DNA of 64,000 nucleotides from Desertivirga arenae (GTDB taxonomy: Bacteria > Bacteroidota > Bacteroidia > Sphingobacteriales > Sphingobacteriaceae), in contig NZ_JAFEWE010000003.1 in assembly GCF_017355785.1 (NCBI RefSeq), positions 496,001-560,000 of the forward strand, in the 5' to 3' direction. The notes under the pieces were generated by a model. The model was not told the origin of the DNA, made no database searches, and worked only from the letters and a program-made list of their open reading frames with translations. This document shows, piece after piece, positions 14,998-55,683 of the stretch. Position numbers and translations under genes: made by a program. The first letter of the stretch is position 1. Each line of letters opens with the position of its first letter.

Positions 14998-15930
14998 ATG
15001 AGCAAAATAATAGCAGCACTTGACCTCGGCACTAATACCTTCCATTTACTGATTGCTTCGGTTGAAAATGGGAAAATCCACAAGTATGTAGAAGAACAGC
15101 GCCATGTAAAATTAGGTGAAGGTGGAATAAATAAAGGGCTGATTGCAGAACAAGCATATGAAAGAGGACTTGAAGCTCTAAGATTTTTTAAATCAATTAT
15201 TGATTCTTATCCTGTTGATCTTATCCGGGCTAACGGAACAGCTGCCTTAAGAACTGCCGCGAATGGGGATGAGTTTATCACTCAGGTTAAAAATGAAACC
15301 GGTATTGAAATCGGGATAATCCCAGGTGATCGCGAAGCAGAATTAATTTACAAAGGTGTCAGGGCTGCAGTAGAGCTGGATGAATCGTCTTTAATAATGG
15401 ATATTGGAGGAGGCAGCGTAGAATTCATCTTTTGCAATCAAGCTGAGATCTTTTGGAAAAGGAGCTATCCTGTAGGTGCTGCTAAATTAATGGCTACTTT
15501 TCATCATTCAGATCCAATTAATAAAAATGATAAGGAGCTGATCCATCTTCATCTGATAAGGGAACTAAAGGAGTTGAAGGAAATAGCCGGGAAGTTCAGG
15601 CCCCTAAAACTTGTTGGCTCGGCGGGAGCTTTTGAAACCTTCGCAGCCTTGGAAGTCGATCAATTTGGAGAAGGCAAAAATTTACAAAAACAACCCCATT
15701 GTCACGTATTTACCTCTCATCACCTTCAAACAGTCATTCAAAATTTGATTACTTCCACACATATTGACCGGGCTAATAATTCCCTTATTCTCCCGGTAAG
15801 AACAGACATGATCGTAGTCGCTTCACTTCTTGCTCAATTTATAATAGAGGAGCTGCAACTATCAAGGGTAGAAATGTCGACCTTCAGTTTAAAAGAAGGC
15901 CTGCTGATAGAATCAGCAGAATCTTATTAG
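14998..15930 (+). CDS. Ppx/GppA family exopolyphosphatase / pppGpp phosphatase (short form)
   Basis: An ASKHA-fold phosphatase of 310 residues. The N-terminal phosphate loop is ALDLGTNTFHLLIA, and the second nucleotide/phosphate motif is MDIGGGSVEFIF. Only the two-lobed N-terminal catalytic unit is present. The HD-like C-terminal part of E. coli Ppx (513 aa) is missing, as is usual for the short Bacteroidota form. Either polyphosphate or pppGpp may be the substrate. It follows the ABC permease by 7 bp, so it probably shares its transcript. It overlaps the convergent maf gene by 4 bp. Confidence 0.88.
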   Translation: MSKIIAALDLGTNTFHLLIASVENGKIHKYVEEQRHVKLGEGGINKGLIAEQAYERGLEALRFFKSIIDSYPVDLIRANGTAALRTAANGDEFITQVKNETGIEIGIIPGDREAELIYKGVRAAVELDESSLIMDIGGGSVEFIFCNQAEIFWKRSYPVGAAKLMATFHHSDPINKNDKELIHLHLIRELKELKEIAGKFRPLKLVGSAGAFETFAALEVDQFGEGKNLQKQPHCHVFTSHHLQTVIQNLITSTHIDRANNSLILPVRTDMIVVASLLAQFIIEELQLSRVEMSTFSLKEGLLIESAESY

Positions 15931-16505
15931 TTCTTCACCAACTTCTGGAGTTCTTCATAAACCCTGTGTGTAGGCAAACCAACAACATTTGAATAAGAAC
16001 CATTAATTCTTTCTATCCCAGCCAAGCCTATCCATTCCTGAATACCGTAGGCTCCTGCTTTATCAAAAGGTTGATAGGTTTGAATGTAATAACTTATTTC
16101 TTCTTTGCTTAAGGGCAGGAAATAAACTTCTGTGGTTTCCGCAAATGAATAGATCTGATGGTTCTGAAGTAAGGCTACACCAGTTATCACATCGTGTTTT
16201 CTTCCTGACAACAATGATAACATCTCAAATGCATGCTCTTCATTTTCCGGCTTACCCAGAATCTGATGGTCTATAGCTACAATTGTATCTGCAGTTAGAA
16301 CGATATCATTCTCCTCCAGCGTTTCATCAAATGCTTTTGCTTTTTTTTCTGCAATAAAAACCGCAACTTGTTCAGGTGATAATCCTTCGGGATAAGACTC
16401 ATCAACATCCTTTAGCACAACATCGAATTCAATTCCGGTTTTCGAAAGTAATTCCTGTCTTCTTGGTGATTTAGATGCAAGTATGATACCTGGGAGCGTT
16501 TTCAT
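15927..16505 (-). CDS. maf: Maf family nucleoside triphosphate pyrophosphatase
   Basis: A 192-residue house-cleaning enzyme that hydrolyses non-canonical or excess dTTP/UTP-type nucleotides to monophosphates. The N-terminal signature ILASKSPRRQELL and the metal/catalytic TADTIV motif are intact, as is GKPENEEHAFEML. Length is normal (about 190-200). The family was first linked to septum inhibition in Bacillus. Which of the two Maf substrate classes it belongs to was not determined. Convergent with the Ppx/GppA gene. Confidence 0.93.
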   Translation of the reverse strand: MKTLPGIILASKSPRRQELLSKTGIEFDVVLKDVDESYPEGLSPEQVAVFIAEKKAKAFDETLEENDIVLTADTIVAIDHQILGKPENEEHAFEMLSLLSGRKHDVITGVALLQNHQIYSFAETTEVYFLPLSKEEISYYIQTYQPFDKAGAYGIQEWIGLAGIERINGSYSNVVGLPTHRVYEELQKLVKN

Positions 16506-16610
16506 ACTTACAAAGGTAATAAAACAAAACCTGTATAGGGAGGCCGCTAAAATTTAAAAAAACCAACTTGACTTGTATTAGCAGGGGCATAGCAAGTTCT
16601 CCTCCAGTGC

Positions 16611-16718
16611 ACTTTGACTCTATTGTAAGTCTGTAGTAAGTCCGTGAATTGCCGGTTAAATACGGACTCAGTATGGACTTACTATGGACTCACTATAGAG
16701 TCAGTACGAATCAGGTAT
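16611..16718. repeat. Inverted cluster of 11-bp tandem repeats
   Basis: Five 11-bp units run from 16664 to 16718: GGACTCAGTAT, GGACTTACTAT, GGACTCACTAT, AGAGTCAGTAC, GAATCAGGTAT. Two to three units in the opposite orientation occupy 16611-16643 (ATTGTAAGTCT, GTAGTAAGTCC). The two arms pair over 30 bp (16616-16645 against 16673-16702) at 25 of 30 positions, so the site can form a long hairpin. It lies between the maf start and the rpmA terminator and encodes nothing. Confidence 0.85.
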
Positions 16719-16736
16719 AGTTAAGTCCATAAAAAA

Positions 16737-16757
16737 AGCCCCACTAAAAGTGGGGCT
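16737..16757 (-). terminator. Terminator of rplU-rpmA
   Basis: Minus-strand stem AGCCCCACT / AGTGGGGCT with a 3-nt loop, followed by seven T. It lies 24 bp beyond the rpmA stop. A T4 run on the other side could make it weakly bidirectional. Confidence 0.85.
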
Positions 16758-16780
16758 TTTCTATATCTTATTCTTATTTC

Positions 16781-17044
16781 TTATTCAGCTACTACTGGAA
16801 GTACAGAAACGTAAGACTTATTATCTGCTTTCTTTTTGAAAACTACTTTTCCATCAACTAAAGCAAATAAAGTGTGGTCTCTACCGATACCTACGTTTTT
16901 ATCAGCATGGTGTCTGGTACCACGTTGACGAACGATGATATTTCCTGCGATTGCATCCTGACCACCGAAAATTTTAATACCTAAGCGTTTGCTATGCGAC
17001 TCGCGACCGTTCTTGGAACTACCGGCTCCTTTTTTGTGTGCCAT
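16781..17044 (-). CDS. rpmA: 50S ribosomal protein L27
   Basis: An 87-residue basic protein. The diagnostic L27 N-terminus [16 protein letters not shown] is followed by [20 protein letters not shown] and the [23 protein letters not shown] block (given here in part). The N-terminal tail reaches the peptidyl-transferase centre. It starts with AHKKG directly, without the cleavable extension found in Firmicutes. It is second in the rplU-rpmA pair. Confidence 0.98.
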
Positions 17045-27196: not shown

Positions 27197-27895
27197 ATGT
27201 CAAGAGTTTTTGTAGGAGGTTTCCCCCGCGATCTAGAAGAAGAAGAATTAAAAGAAATATTTCAGGCATTTGGGCTAGTTGAAGCCGTTAAAATTGTCAG
27301 AGACAAACGAACAGGAATAAGCAGAAGATTTGGTTTCGTTGACATGGACAGTAAAGAGACAGCTGACCTTGCTATACAAAACCTTCACGAGGGTTCCATC
27401 GATGAAGATGTGATCAGCGTTAAGCATGCTGTTGTTGAAGAGCCTAAACCTAAACCGGAAGTTCAGCCTCAAAGAGAAAGAGCCCAGAAAGTGCAGTGGA
27501 AGCCTAAAACCCAGGGTTACAATAAGGGCAAACCAGGTAATGGTTACGGAAAATCAAACTACGGTTCAAACCGGTCGAATAATGGCGGTGGAGGCTACGG
27601 TAACCAGAACAGAAGTTATGGAAACCAAGGTAACGGAAATGGTAGCGGCGGCGGCTATGGCAACCGTAATAATGGTAATGGATACGGTAATCAAAATAAT
27701 GGTTATGGTAACCAGAACAGTGGTTATGGCAATCAAAATAGTGGATATGGCAACCGTGACAACGGAGGCTATAACAGTCAGGGTTCAGGCTATAATAACA
27801 ACAATGATTACAGATCAAATCGTAATAACAATGATTCAGGATCTGGATCTGGTCCAGGAAAACCAAAAAGACCGCGGATAAATCGTAACGGATAA
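27197..27895 (+). CDS. RNA-binding protein with RRM and Gly/Asn/Tyr-rich tail
   Basis: A 232-residue protein. An RRM domain fills residues 1-80, with RNP2 (VFVGGF) and RNP1 (RRFGFVDM) intact. A Lys/Pro/Glu linker follows. From about residue 110 to the end is a low-complexity tail built on repeats such as GYGNQN, then SGSGSGPGKPKRPRINR. The design matches the small RRM-glycine proteins of cyanobacteria and Bacteroidota, thought to bind single-stranded RNA and often linked to cold adaptation. The leader appears long, which would suit post-transcriptional control (inference). Confidence 0.9.
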   Translation: MSRVFVGGFPRDLEEEELKEIFQAFGLVEAVKIVRDKRTGISRRFGFVDMDSKETADLAIQNLHEGSIDEDVISVKHAVVEEPKPKPEVQPQRERAQKVQWKPKTQGYNKGKPGNGYGKSNYGSNRSNNGGGGYGNQNRSYGNQGNGNGSGGGYGNRNNGNGYGNQNNGYGNQNSGYGNQNSGYGNRDNGGYNSQGSGYNNNNDYRSNRNNNDSGSGSGPGKPKRPRINRNG

Positions 27896-46617: not shown

Positions 46618-46697
46618 ATTGAATGAATGAGTGAGTGAATTATTTTAATGAATGAATGAATGAATGAGTGAATGAGTGAATGAATGATTGATTGACT
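46618..46697. repeat. 4-bp (TGAA/TGAG) tandem repeat tract
   Basis: Imperfect tetranucleotide repeats (GAAT/GAGT units, about 15) occupy this stretch 25-105 bp before the purC start codon. It sits where the purC promoter or leader should be. Complementary sequence lies in the tract at 46772-46873. Confidence 0.8.
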
Positions 46698-46771: not shown

Positions 46772-46873
46772 AAACAATCATTCTATCATTCCATCATTCT
46801 CTCCTTCCATCATTCTCTCTTTCTATCATTCATTCATTCTATCCTTCTATCATTTCCTCCTTCTATCATTCCA
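46772..46873. repeat. 8-bp (ATCATTCY) pyrimidine-rich repeat tract
   Basis: About ten imperfect copies of ATCATTCY and its 4-bp variants, such as ATCATTCT and ATCATTCC, interrupted by CTCCTTCC-type units. The tract runs up to the phoH stop codon at 46874. Its TCATTCATTCATTC segment is complementary to the tract near purC. Confidence 0.8.
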
Positions 46874-47836
46874 TCACTGTATATCTCCGTAAGCCTTAAG
46901 GATCTGCTTAACAAGCTTATGCCTTACCACATCTTCTCCGCTCAGATAGATTATATCAATACCCTTAATGTCCTCGAGGATCCTAAGAGCTGTATGCAAA
47001 CCGGAATGCTGTTTCTTTGGCAAGTCGATCTGGGTGATATCCCCTGTTACGATGAATTTAGCTGAAGGTCCCATACGGGTCAAAAACATCTTCAATTGCA
47101 TATCCGTCGCGTTCTGGGCTTCATCCAAAATCACAAAGCAGTTATCTAGGGTACGTCCACGCATAAATGCAAGCGGAGCCACTTCTATTGTCCTGTTCTC
47201 CAGATAAGCCTTCAGTTTTTCAGGAGGGATCATATCGTCCAACGCATCATATAAAGGACGTAAATACGGATCTATCTTCTCCTTCAAATCACCAGGTAGA
47301 AAACCAAGGTTCTCGCCTGCTTCAACGGCTGGACGAGTAAGAATGATGCGCTTTATCTCTTTATTTTTCAAAGCCCTTACCGCAAGCGCAACGGCTGTAT
47401 AAGTTTTTCCTGTACCAGCAGGACCAATGGCGAATAGTATATCACTTTTATTAAGCCCTTCTACCATCCTGCGCTGATTTGCAGTCCTCGCTTTTACAAC
47501 AATACCGTTAGGGCCAAAAACGATCGGTTCACCTCCACCACCTTGGGGCTTATCTCCGCCTTCACCTTCTGTCTGTACACTCACAGAGGCCCCAAGAAAA
47601 TGCTCAAGGTCGTTATTGTTAAGACTATTGTAACGCTCCACATGTTTTAAGATTTCTTTAAAACGATTGTTGAAAGCATTCAGCTCCGCATCATCTCCCA
47701 GCACTTTTACTTCTGTCCCACGGGCAACAATTTTTATCTTTGGGAACTGTCTTTTAATTACTTCGAAATACTCGTTATTAGGGCCCCAGAGAACAATGGG
47801 GTTAACATTCTCAAGATCAATCTTTAATTCGTTCAA
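46874..47836 (-). CDS. PhoH family ATPase
   Basis: A 320-residue P-loop ATPase with an N-terminal KH-like region. Walker A is GPAGTGKT (residues 138-145), Walker B is FVILDEAQN, and sensor-type FIVTGDITQIDLPKK follows. This fold is an RNA-linked helicase-type ATPase, often near ybeY and miaB genes, and its role is poorly defined. The start is a TTG at 47836, with an AAGGA Shine-Dalgarno-like sequence six bases upstream, and no early ATG in frame. Confidence 0.93.
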   Translation of the reverse strand: MNELKIDLENVNPIVLWGPNNEYFEVIKRQFPKIKIVARGTEVKVLGDDAELNAFNNRFKEILKHVERYNSLNNNDLEHFLGASVSVQTEGEGGDKPQGGGGEPIVFGPNGIVVKARTANQRRMVEGLNKSDILFAIGPAGTGKTYTAVALAVRALKNKEIKRIILTRPAVEAGENLGFLPGDLKEKIDPYLRPLYDALDDMIPPEKLKAYLENRTIEVAPLAFMRGRTLDNCFVILDEAQNATDMQLKMFLTRMGPSAKFIVTGDITQIDLPKKQHSGLHTALRILEDIKGIDIIYLSGEDVVRHKLVKQILKAYGDIQ

Positions 47837-54495: not shown

Positions 54496-54626
54496 AGTTA
54501 TACTTTTTCGAATGAGGAACAAACACATTCTAAAGAATGTTTCTAATTATGAATACTGTGGATAGAGTCGAAAAAAGTCCGGGCAATTCAGAGAGTAATT
54601 AAACGATTTACATTTAGTGCTTTCTA

Positions 54627-54681
54627 TCGGACTATCTGTGCTTTATCCGGGGAGTATCTGGGGAGTATCCCCGGAGTATTT
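54627..54681. repeat. 11-bp tandem repeats, second cluster
   Basis: Five 11-bp units in phase: TCGGACTATCT, GTGCTTTATCC, GGGGAGTATCT, GGGGAGTATCC, CCGGAGTATTT. The last three are close copies. TAT(C/T) recurs every 11 bp. A short palindrome, GGGGAGTATCCCC, lies inside. It sits 13 bp past the stop codon of the GlxA-type regulator. The rest of the gap 54496-54693 shows nothing else. Confidence 0.8.
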
Positions 54682-54693
54682 GAGAAGCTATTG

Positions 54694-55683
54694 CTAACCA
54701 GCCAGCCCTATCTGCGCCCTGTTATATTTATTTCTATATTCGATCGGCGACAAGCCCGTAGTCCTTTTAAATGTTGTTCTGAACGCCTTTGTATCGGTAT
54801 AACCCACTTGATACATTACTTCGTTAATGTTGATCCTGGAACTCTCCAGGCTCTTTTTCGCAGCCTCGATCTTAACACATTGCATATACTCCACGATAGT
54901 ATTGGTGGTTGCCTTCTTAAATCTTCTTTCAAGACTTCTTCGATTGAGGGCTAACATATCAGCGATCTGGTCAACAGTGATCCTTTCCTGATAATTCTTC
55001 TCAATATACTCCTGCGCTTTGCGAACCAGATCATCCCCATGCTCCTTTTGTCCCTTGAAAATAATGAAAGGAGACTGGCTATGCCGGTCCATTTCGATCT
55101 CAAAAACTTTTGAGCACATTATAGCCATATCCCTGCCAGCGTACTTTTCGATCAGGTATAAAACCAAGTTCATTGATGAGAATGCTCCCCCGCTCGAATA
55201 CAAACCAAACTCGTCTGTTATAATCTTATCAGGTACCATCTTTACTTCGGGAAACATAGATTTAAATTCAGCAGCTGAAAGCCAGTGTGTAGAGCATTCT
55301 TTTCCATTGAGGAGTCCCGTGGAGGCGAGAATAAAAGCTCCGATACAAAGACTTGCCACTTCTGCCCCTTGCTTGTACTGGCTGATGATCCATGGCACAT
55401 AGTCCCGGTTTAGCTCCAGAATATGTTTTATAGGACCATGGACTGCCGGAATAATTATCAGGTCAGTCTTTATCAGGTCTTTTATCGTCAGTTGCGGAAT
55501 AACTGTAAACAGCCCGTTCGTTAGGCGTGTTTCCTTAGAAAGCCCTACCATCTGCACCTTGAATAAAGGTGCTTTTCCGGCACTGGCAAGAAAACCATTA
55601 ACCATGTTAAACATTTTGTAAGTGGCCTCCAGGTTGCTTAAGCTGGTTTCTCCTTCTAAAGCAAGGATCGATATGTGCTTCAT
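54694..55683 (-). CDS. GlxA family transcriptional regulator (DJ-1/PfpI + AraC)
   Basis: A 329-residue regulator. The N-terminal DJ-1/PfpI-like domain (ISILALEGETSLSNL, VASLCIGAFILASTGLL with a possible nucleophile Cys) fills about residues 1-200. The C-terminal AraC-type helix-turn-helix pair (ITVDQIADMLALNRRSLERRF, then VMYQVGYTDTKAFRTTF) is complete. GlxA-type regulators usually control adjacent divergent genes. Here the divergent neighbour is the six-gene plus-strand cluster beginning at 55797. No effector can be named. Confidence 0.9.
   Translation of the reverse strand: MKHISILALEGETSLSNLEATYKMFNMVNGFLASAGKAPLFKVQMVGLSKETRLTNGLFTVIPQLTIKDLIKTDLIIIPAVHGPIKHILELNRDYVPWIISQYKQGAEVASLCIGAFILASTGLLNGKECSTHWLSAAEFKSMFPEVKMVPDKIITDEFGLYSSGGAFSSMNLVLYLIEKYAGRDMAIMCSKVFEIEMDRHSQSPFIIFKGQKEHGDDLVRKAQEYIEKNYQERITVDQIADMLALNRRSLERRFKKATTNTIVEYMQCVKIEAAKKSLESSRININEVMYQVGYTDTKAFRTTFKRTTGLSPIEYRNKYNRAQIGLAG

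Follow-up and report, generated by a model that had tools for sequence, protein, structure and literature searches.

A hairpin of 11-bp repeats beside rpmA in Desertivirga arenae, probably a gene-less copy of a small mobile unit linked to DUF6266-related genes

The cluster of 11-bp repeats at positions 16611-16718 of a 64,000-nucleotide stretch of the Desertivirga arenae genome (hereafter the window) is probably, with a likelihood that we put at roughly 60%, a solo copy, lacking the gene, of the hairpin with which a small mobile unit of Bacteroidota begins at its 5' end. The layout of the unit would be a hairpin of inverted 11-bp arrays, a promoter region and one gene related to the Pfam family DUF6266 (PF19781). 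Hairpins of this kind belong to the upstream regions of gene families, namely DUF6266 and a distant relative, here called family ii, and the element seems to be an undescribed small mobile element that spreads with its gene family.

The cluster lies between two genes of the reverse strand named from their ORFs and translations, its upstream neighbour at 16781-17044 (-), which we take to be rpmA (ribosomal protein L27), and its downstream neighbour at 15927-16505 (-), presumably a maf-like gene. The preliminary description had proposed two inverted arms of 11-bp units, and these are indeed present: a left arm of decayed units at 16615-16643 (+) faces positions 16675-16703, with 25 of 29 positions paired without gaps around a 31-base loop (16644-16674) that holds an extra, unpaired unit from 16664. 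The right-arm array (16664-16707, +) consists of four units in 11-bp register, starting at 16664 (GGACTCAGTAT), 16675 (GGACTTACTAT), 16686 (GGACTCACTAT) and 16697 (AGAGTCAGTAC), followed by a decayed unit from 16708 to 16718; Tandem Repeats Finder reported period 11 with 3.0 copies at 16664-16696. Folding of positions 16590-16765 gave -70.5 kcal/mol as RNA (z -7.76) and -35.1 as DNA (z -6.98), with 0 of 200 shuffles equally stable in either case, although both z-scores are raised by the hairpin of the likely intrinsic rpmA terminator (GCCCCAC..GTGGGGC, 16738-16756, -; sequence and fold), which adjoins the element and falls within the folded stretch. A covariance model matched the hairpin core at 16608-16697 on the minus strand over positions 1-90 of 90 with 79.3 bits, the window copy being one of the 20 used to build that model. 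In minus-strand orientation, a cognate gene would come after the hairpin; being a quasi-palindrome, the core was matched on the plus strand too (51.2 bits). No family-ii or DUF6266-type gene lies beside the window hairpin, and none was found anywhere in the window. Conservation of the arms in relatives, anticipated earlier, failed at this site, as the hairpin was present in 0 of the 26 rpmA/rplU loci searched among 29 fetched from relatives.

Arrays with an 11-bp period are found well beyond this site. A scan of 864 kb of the 6.19-Mb D. arenae genome (800 kb in stretches plus the window), in which an array in non-ORF DNA had to show at least 22 of 33 matches, gave nine arrays at period 11, nine at 22 (the double of 11), six at period 8, five at 16, and 1, 1, 0, 1 and 0 at periods 10, 13, 14, 17 and 23, respectively. 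At the same threshold, 200 kb from each of two congeners held one period-11 array and none. The units of the nine arrays differ (GGACTCACTAT, TATCCGGGGAG, CTTATAGCGAT, GGGTTATGTCC, GATTCAAATCC and others), and GGACTCACTAT is found at the window cluster and beside groEL. Chance or slippage is an unlikely origin, given the excess of period 11 over most periods and a unit common to several genera. The expectation of an intergenic family with an 11-bp period was borne out, and the family reaches beyond D. arenae. A lag-11 scan of the window yielded two arrays, the cluster at 16611-16718 and another at 54.6 kb, which had been read as evidence of one genome-wide family; the period of 11 bp is shared, but the unit belongs to a different family. 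This second array (54631-54693, unit TATCCGGGGAG) folds weakly (DNA z -2.1, 7 of 200 shuffles equally stable) and has three clear relatives elsewhere in the genome.

Several further arrays were observed. The relatives of the TATCCGGGGAG array (window 54520-54720) lie at C16:31924, C13:65451 and C10:84867 of D. arenae, and the copies at C13 and C10 are alike well past the array limits; beside the TATCCGGGGAG copies, no DUF6266-like ORF was recognised among ORFs of at least 80 aa. A tandem array with an 8/16/40-bp period (ATCATTCT/ATCATTCC) occupies window positions 46777-46876, with a TGAA array ahead of it at 46620-46695, and a 21-bp array of 3.6 copies at 27679-27753 has a period that is a multiple of three and is perhaps coding. 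Elsewhere in D. arenae, a 22-bp array (GATTATTGGGGATGATTCCACC) sits at a gene end (L045:12907-13053), and its internal spacing is not of the 11-bp class.

Hairpins of the window unit occur in at least five places in D. arenae, namely in the window, beside groEL and at C42:101055, C6:139315 and C38:123386; the covariance search of this genome scored 150 of 2394 candidates and gave 10 strand-wise matches, and the eight of them that are listed fall at these five places. Using a 21-base pattern common to the rpmA and groEL copies (TATGGACTYACTATGGACTYA), 61 stretches were matched in a 257-Gb genome collection, where we estimate about 0.5 by chance. All belong to Bacteroidota genera: Myroides N17-2 (34), NP-2 (7), WP-1 (3) and M. 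marinus (3), Pedobacter (9), Flavobacterium endophyticum (2), and Parapedobacter, Confluentibacter and Kaistella (1 each). The covariance model gave at least 96 strand-wise matches in Myroides N17-2, at least 50 in M. marinus and at least 38 in NP-2, with at most 150 candidates scored per genome; these correspond to fewer places, since many places match on both strands. An inverted, decayed arm stands opposite the array in 60 of the 61 stretches, the remaining one being cut by the stretch start. Among ORFs of at least 80 aa, one (107 aa) encloses one of the 61 hairpins, and the arrays of two others contain the start of an ORF.

The two arms also covary. Across 20 copies and 15 stem pairs, 92.0% of cells are paired (85.1% in shuffles, 26-39% in slid controls), and 22 cells are changed on both sides compared with 7.9 in shuffles, such change affecting 8 of the 15 pairs; the structure was derived from the tested alignment itself, so the test favours it. 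The conservation of one arm reflects the choice of data, because the pattern TATGGACTYACTATGGACTYA fixed 21 bases there. In the decayed arm, fully conserved AT pairs recur every 11 bases, and a conservation periodogram of this arm was not significant (p 0.45). Presentation of the units on one face of the DNA is plausible.

The genes behind the hairpins emerged when the genes neighbouring the 61 loci were compared all against all, in which comparison the array-adjoining ORF at five non-Myroides loci came from one family of ~240-330-aa proteins, family ii, weakly related to DUF6266. Another shared neighbouring gene was rejected as an explanation, as just a few single pairs were seen apart from family ii. 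The one gene-linked hairpin of the window unit observed in D. arenae (G000:C38:123386; gene read in G000:C38:122300-124000) lies ~100-190 bp upstream of a family-ii gene. Two further array-bearing genes of this genome (C34:12609-13256 and C34:445483-446205) are DUF6266 members according to Pfam. HHalign related family ii to DUF6266 with a probability of 82 and an E value of 1e-5 over the first 96 residues only, and none of four family-ii proteins matched PF19781 above the gathering score.

Both families carry period-11 arrays upstream far more often than other genes do. Within 400 bp upstream, an array was present in 24 of 41 DUF6266 loci (all 11 of D. arenae plus 30 of 57 matches from other genomes, 7 of the 9 sampled having matches), whereas downstream the count was 0 of 41. 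At the same threshold, other periods reached at most 8 of 41 upstream, except the double period 22 (14 of 41). The 17 loci without an array at the threshold used include L182, where the wrong ORF was picked and scored as a miss, and three of the 41 loci are second genes of tandem pairs. Without the two loci found through their arrays, the proportion was 22 of 39. For family ii, 30 loci taken from 35 matches gave an array within 450 bp upstream in 22 and downstream in one, or 17 of 25 upstream without the five array-found loci, and two of four further D. arenae family-ii genes had an array upstream. In the background, upstream arrays were found at 9 of 691 D. arenae genes, at 9 of the 277 having at least 150 bp upstream and at 1 of 303 genes in the two congeners, with the array-bearing loci of this analysis left inside the background set; Fisher tests against the 277 gave p 5e-18 for DUF6266 and 4e-20 for family ii.

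The units linked to DUF6266 mostly differ between paralogues, AACAGGG being seen in three loci. Family ii, with 10 matches in D. arenae, was present in all 10 of the hairpin genomes searched, compared with 28 of 296 across the phylum; the ten had been selected for holding hairpins, five of them did not feed the family-ii query, and they come from 12 known hairpin genomes, Myroides WP-1 and Pedobacter PMG_085 standing outside the search. DUF6266 was found in 21 of the 296 genomes and in 0 of 14 control genomes. Confluentibacter holds hairpins, but both of its family-ii genes lack the window unit. No single kind of gene follows family ii, the downstream neighbours being mixed. Behind four DUF6266 genes of D. 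arenae (L155, L156, L160 and L165), shared small genes follow (ORFs of ~150 and 105 aa), so some units may carry cargo. In the Pedobacter MAG PMG_085, period-11 arrays of different units (MGKKRKSKGKKVRY and others; L102:252-464) precede a 219-aa gene without a Pfam match, perhaps a third gene family of the array-linked kind.

Hairpin and gene recur together as a unit. The family-ii copies L200 and L207, on contigs C38 and C13 of D. arenae, are 94.5% identical over 1194 bp with unrelated flanks, the shared span beginning ~240 bp ahead of the gene, taking in the hairpin and ending 4 bp after the stop codon. In these two, decay has left the outer array under the threshold (score 17), with just the GGACT apex clear. 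A third D. arenae copy (C41) matches over almost all of this span at 75%; no outer array in the three copies scores above 17. Three P. frigiditerrae copies are similarly alike from ~215-270 bp before the start to as much as ~33 bp after the stop.

Such recurrence bears on a regulatory reading of the arrays, in which DUF6266-type proteins would be DNA-binding regulators, the upstream array autoregulatory and the solo arrays further regulatory sites. This arrangement agrees with the position of the array upstream of the gene, with units that differ between most paralogues, and with a promoter-like box, TAnnTTTG, which we take to be the Bacteroidota promoter consensus. A consensus scan of 61 loci placed this box between array and gene in all 13 having both, two of which carry another box upstream of the array. 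However, regulatory sites do not account for a hairpin-plus-gene stretch that occurs twice as a unit, nor for solo copies without fixed orientation to their neighbours (17 divergent, 12 convergent and 26 co-directional among the 55 with an ORF on both sides), and we regard an operator or regulon as rather unlikely.

The covarying stem could also be read at the RNA level, with the array transcribed and acting as RNA, for example as the partner of the protein as in type III toxin-antitoxin systems, where tandem repeats stand upstream of a single gene. The repeats here share that position and are mostly specific to the paralogue, and transcription is suggested by the extra box upstream of the array at 2 of the 13 gene loci, as well as by TAnnTTTG boxes that, by eye, point inward on one or both sides of many solo hairpins of Myroides N17-2. 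Strand-specific RNA pairing was nevertheless rejected, as wobble-class mismatches are even between the strands (GT+TG 102, AC+CA 104; 61 loci that are not independent). Moreover, at 13 of 13 loci the box sits between array and gene, no PADLOC match was obtained, and no Rfam family reached the gathering threshold over the window array or nine related loci. A functional RNA hairpin is accordingly very unlikely, and the box position, the balance of wobble-class mismatches between strands and the lack of a fixed orientation favour a role at the DNA level. Many solo hairpins of Myroides N17-2 (e.g., L095, L107 and L126) are embedded in longer repeated intergenic stretches, where small conserved inverted repeats (ATTTCTA..TAGAAAT and GACC..GGTC) accompany the promoter-like boxes by eye.

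Most of the scored solo copies resemble the gene-linked hairpins of their own genome. Among 52 scored solo hairpins, 34 of them from Myroides N17-2, 45 were most similar to a gene-linked hairpin of the same genome, with counts of 5 of 7 in NP-2, 1 of 3 in M. marinus, 1 of 2 in D. arenae and 0 of 1 each in P. duraquae and Parapedobacter. The D. arenae C42 and C6 copies are not part of this count, and for the Kaistella gene hairpin a terminator was taken as the centre. The window copy at rpmA is among the seven exceptions, its closest hairpin not being that of the D. arenae gene. At one gene junction, Myroides N17-2 and M. marinus carry a solo hairpin that WP-1 and NP-2 lack; between the alignable flanks lie ~200 bp in N17-2 compared with 13 bp in WP-1 and 11 bp in NP-2. 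This difference could stem equally from insertion in the former or from clean deletion in the latter; a second candidate, L153, was less clear and was left out. No target-site duplication was seen, either in the L200/L207 flanks by eye or at the empty site, where the alignment is too diverged.

Alternatively, the phased arrays may be binding sites of a host protein, with gyrase, HU or another nucleoid protein recognising them at the ends of transcription units in the manner of BIMEs. The D. arenae copies adjoining the rpmA and groEL terminators, the 11-bp phasing and the ~100-bp length of the hairpin, comparable with a gyrase footprint, would suit such sites. Host-protein binding leaves unexplained, though, why the arrays are linked to patchy gene families on the upstream side only and why different loci have different units, and it too appears very improbable.

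Regarding the protein, no nuclease or recombinase was recognised with Pfam, PADLOC, PHROGs and NCBIfam, where rows were at chance level only, and the mover could thus be something else. Seven proteins tested in each of Pfam and NCBIfam matched no transposase family, and the seven submitted to PADLOC gave no match. A structure predicted for the family-ii protein L154 from a five-row alignment is weak, given a mean pLDDT of 56 and a pTM of 0.53. The C-terminal half of this model appears similar to FN3-like sandwiches (best Foldseek E value 8e-4; best VIA Z 7.4 to 5dft_B over 85 residues at 3.4 A), a resemblance that at Z 7.4 may be just a common arrangement, and the structure search barely tested the N-terminal part. 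A PDB sequence search returned nothing meaningful. Y1_Tnp (PF01797) had 0 matches in D. arenae, which is one of 7 hairpin genomes out of 10 without a match.

It could be argued that the units are passengers, which recombination or a transposase foreign to them carries along, and that the gene has another job. The protein does lack a recognised catalytic signature, and further small downstream genes are common to some DUF6266 copies. In a transposase search that covered Y1_Tnp alone, on the other hand, D. arenae and 6 of the 9 other genomes gave no match, and hairpins and family-ii genes occur together in each of the 10 genomes searched; we judge passenger status very improbable.

The preferred reading remains that of a mobile unit whose hairpin is recognised by the protein of its own family. 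The protein would bind the hairpin with one contact per helical turn, all on the same face, and such contacts would keep the 11-bp spacing while the unit changes between paralogues. Recognition could allow copies of the unit, perhaps in the form of a single-stranded hairpin, to reach further intergenic sites, and would act in trans on gene-less hairpins; the copy between rpmA and maf would be one such insertion, adjoining the rpmA terminator. More generally, and somewhat short of an even chance in our estimation, DUF6266-type proteins might confer specificity, and perhaps mobility, on a class of bacterial mobile DNA that has not been described. Every paralogue would own a hairpin with its own motif per helical turn and spread both itself and gene-less hairpins with no known recombinase, the motif diversifying while the 11-bp pitch stays fixed.

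With these results, a Pfam family without function becomes tied to a defined DNA element, and the 11-bp-period arrays scattered over Bacteroidota genomes gain a testable partner. If the protein acts on the hairpin, there would be many protein-motif pairs from which DNA recognition could be read by comparison. Pfam gives no function for DUF6266, of which the two array-linked C34 genes are members, and its model does not detect family ii, which is linked to the window unit. In the open-access literature, no papers were found that name DUF6266 or PF19781 or that treat such a repeat system.

Among known systems, type III toxin-antitoxin loci (ToxIN and kin) share the placing of tandem repeats upstream of a single gene (PMC8860590 and others), but differ from the present family, in which the units have 11 bases, solo copies are dispersed, wobble-class mismatches show no strand bias, promoter-like boxes stand between array and gene and PADLOC gives no match. 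Similar to MITEs and solo insertion-sequence ends, short gene-less copies resemble one end of a unit that carries a gene, with presence and absence at an orthologous site. Unlike insertion sequences with MITEs, however, the gene-bearing copy has no recognised transposase, and the hairpin was observed on the 5' side of the unit alone; no target-site duplication was seen in the flanks read by eye. PMC6006769 describes atypical structures that adjoin subclass 2.6 Y1 genes in Bacteroidetes and have further copies in the genome, which suggested a Y1 transposase as a hidden partner; this candidate was rejected, and the structures described there do not explain D. arenae, because no Y1 gene was matched in that genome.

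The closest system in anatomy is REPIN/RAYT. According to PMC3116915, REPINs are dispersed intergenic hairpins of inverted repeats, each kind beside its own gene, with which it is thought to co-evolve; their stems show compensatory changes, and they are regarded as non-autonomous mobile DNA. The present family likewise consists of dispersed extragenic hairpins of inverted repeats, and its repeat adjoins a cognate gene and changes with it, one genome dominating that comparison. It differs in that the arms are phased 11-bp arrays, that the gene family is multicopy (10 family-ii matches) whereas RAYTs are described as single copy, and that the partner gene is of DUF6266 type rather than a Y1/HUH transposase. 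It is thus not a member of REPIN/RAYT, since the defining Y1 transposase was unmatched in D. arenae and in 7 of 10 hairpin genomes overall, yet the two may work alike. If the protein acts on the hairpin, the REPIN/RAYT way of life would have arisen a second time, independently.
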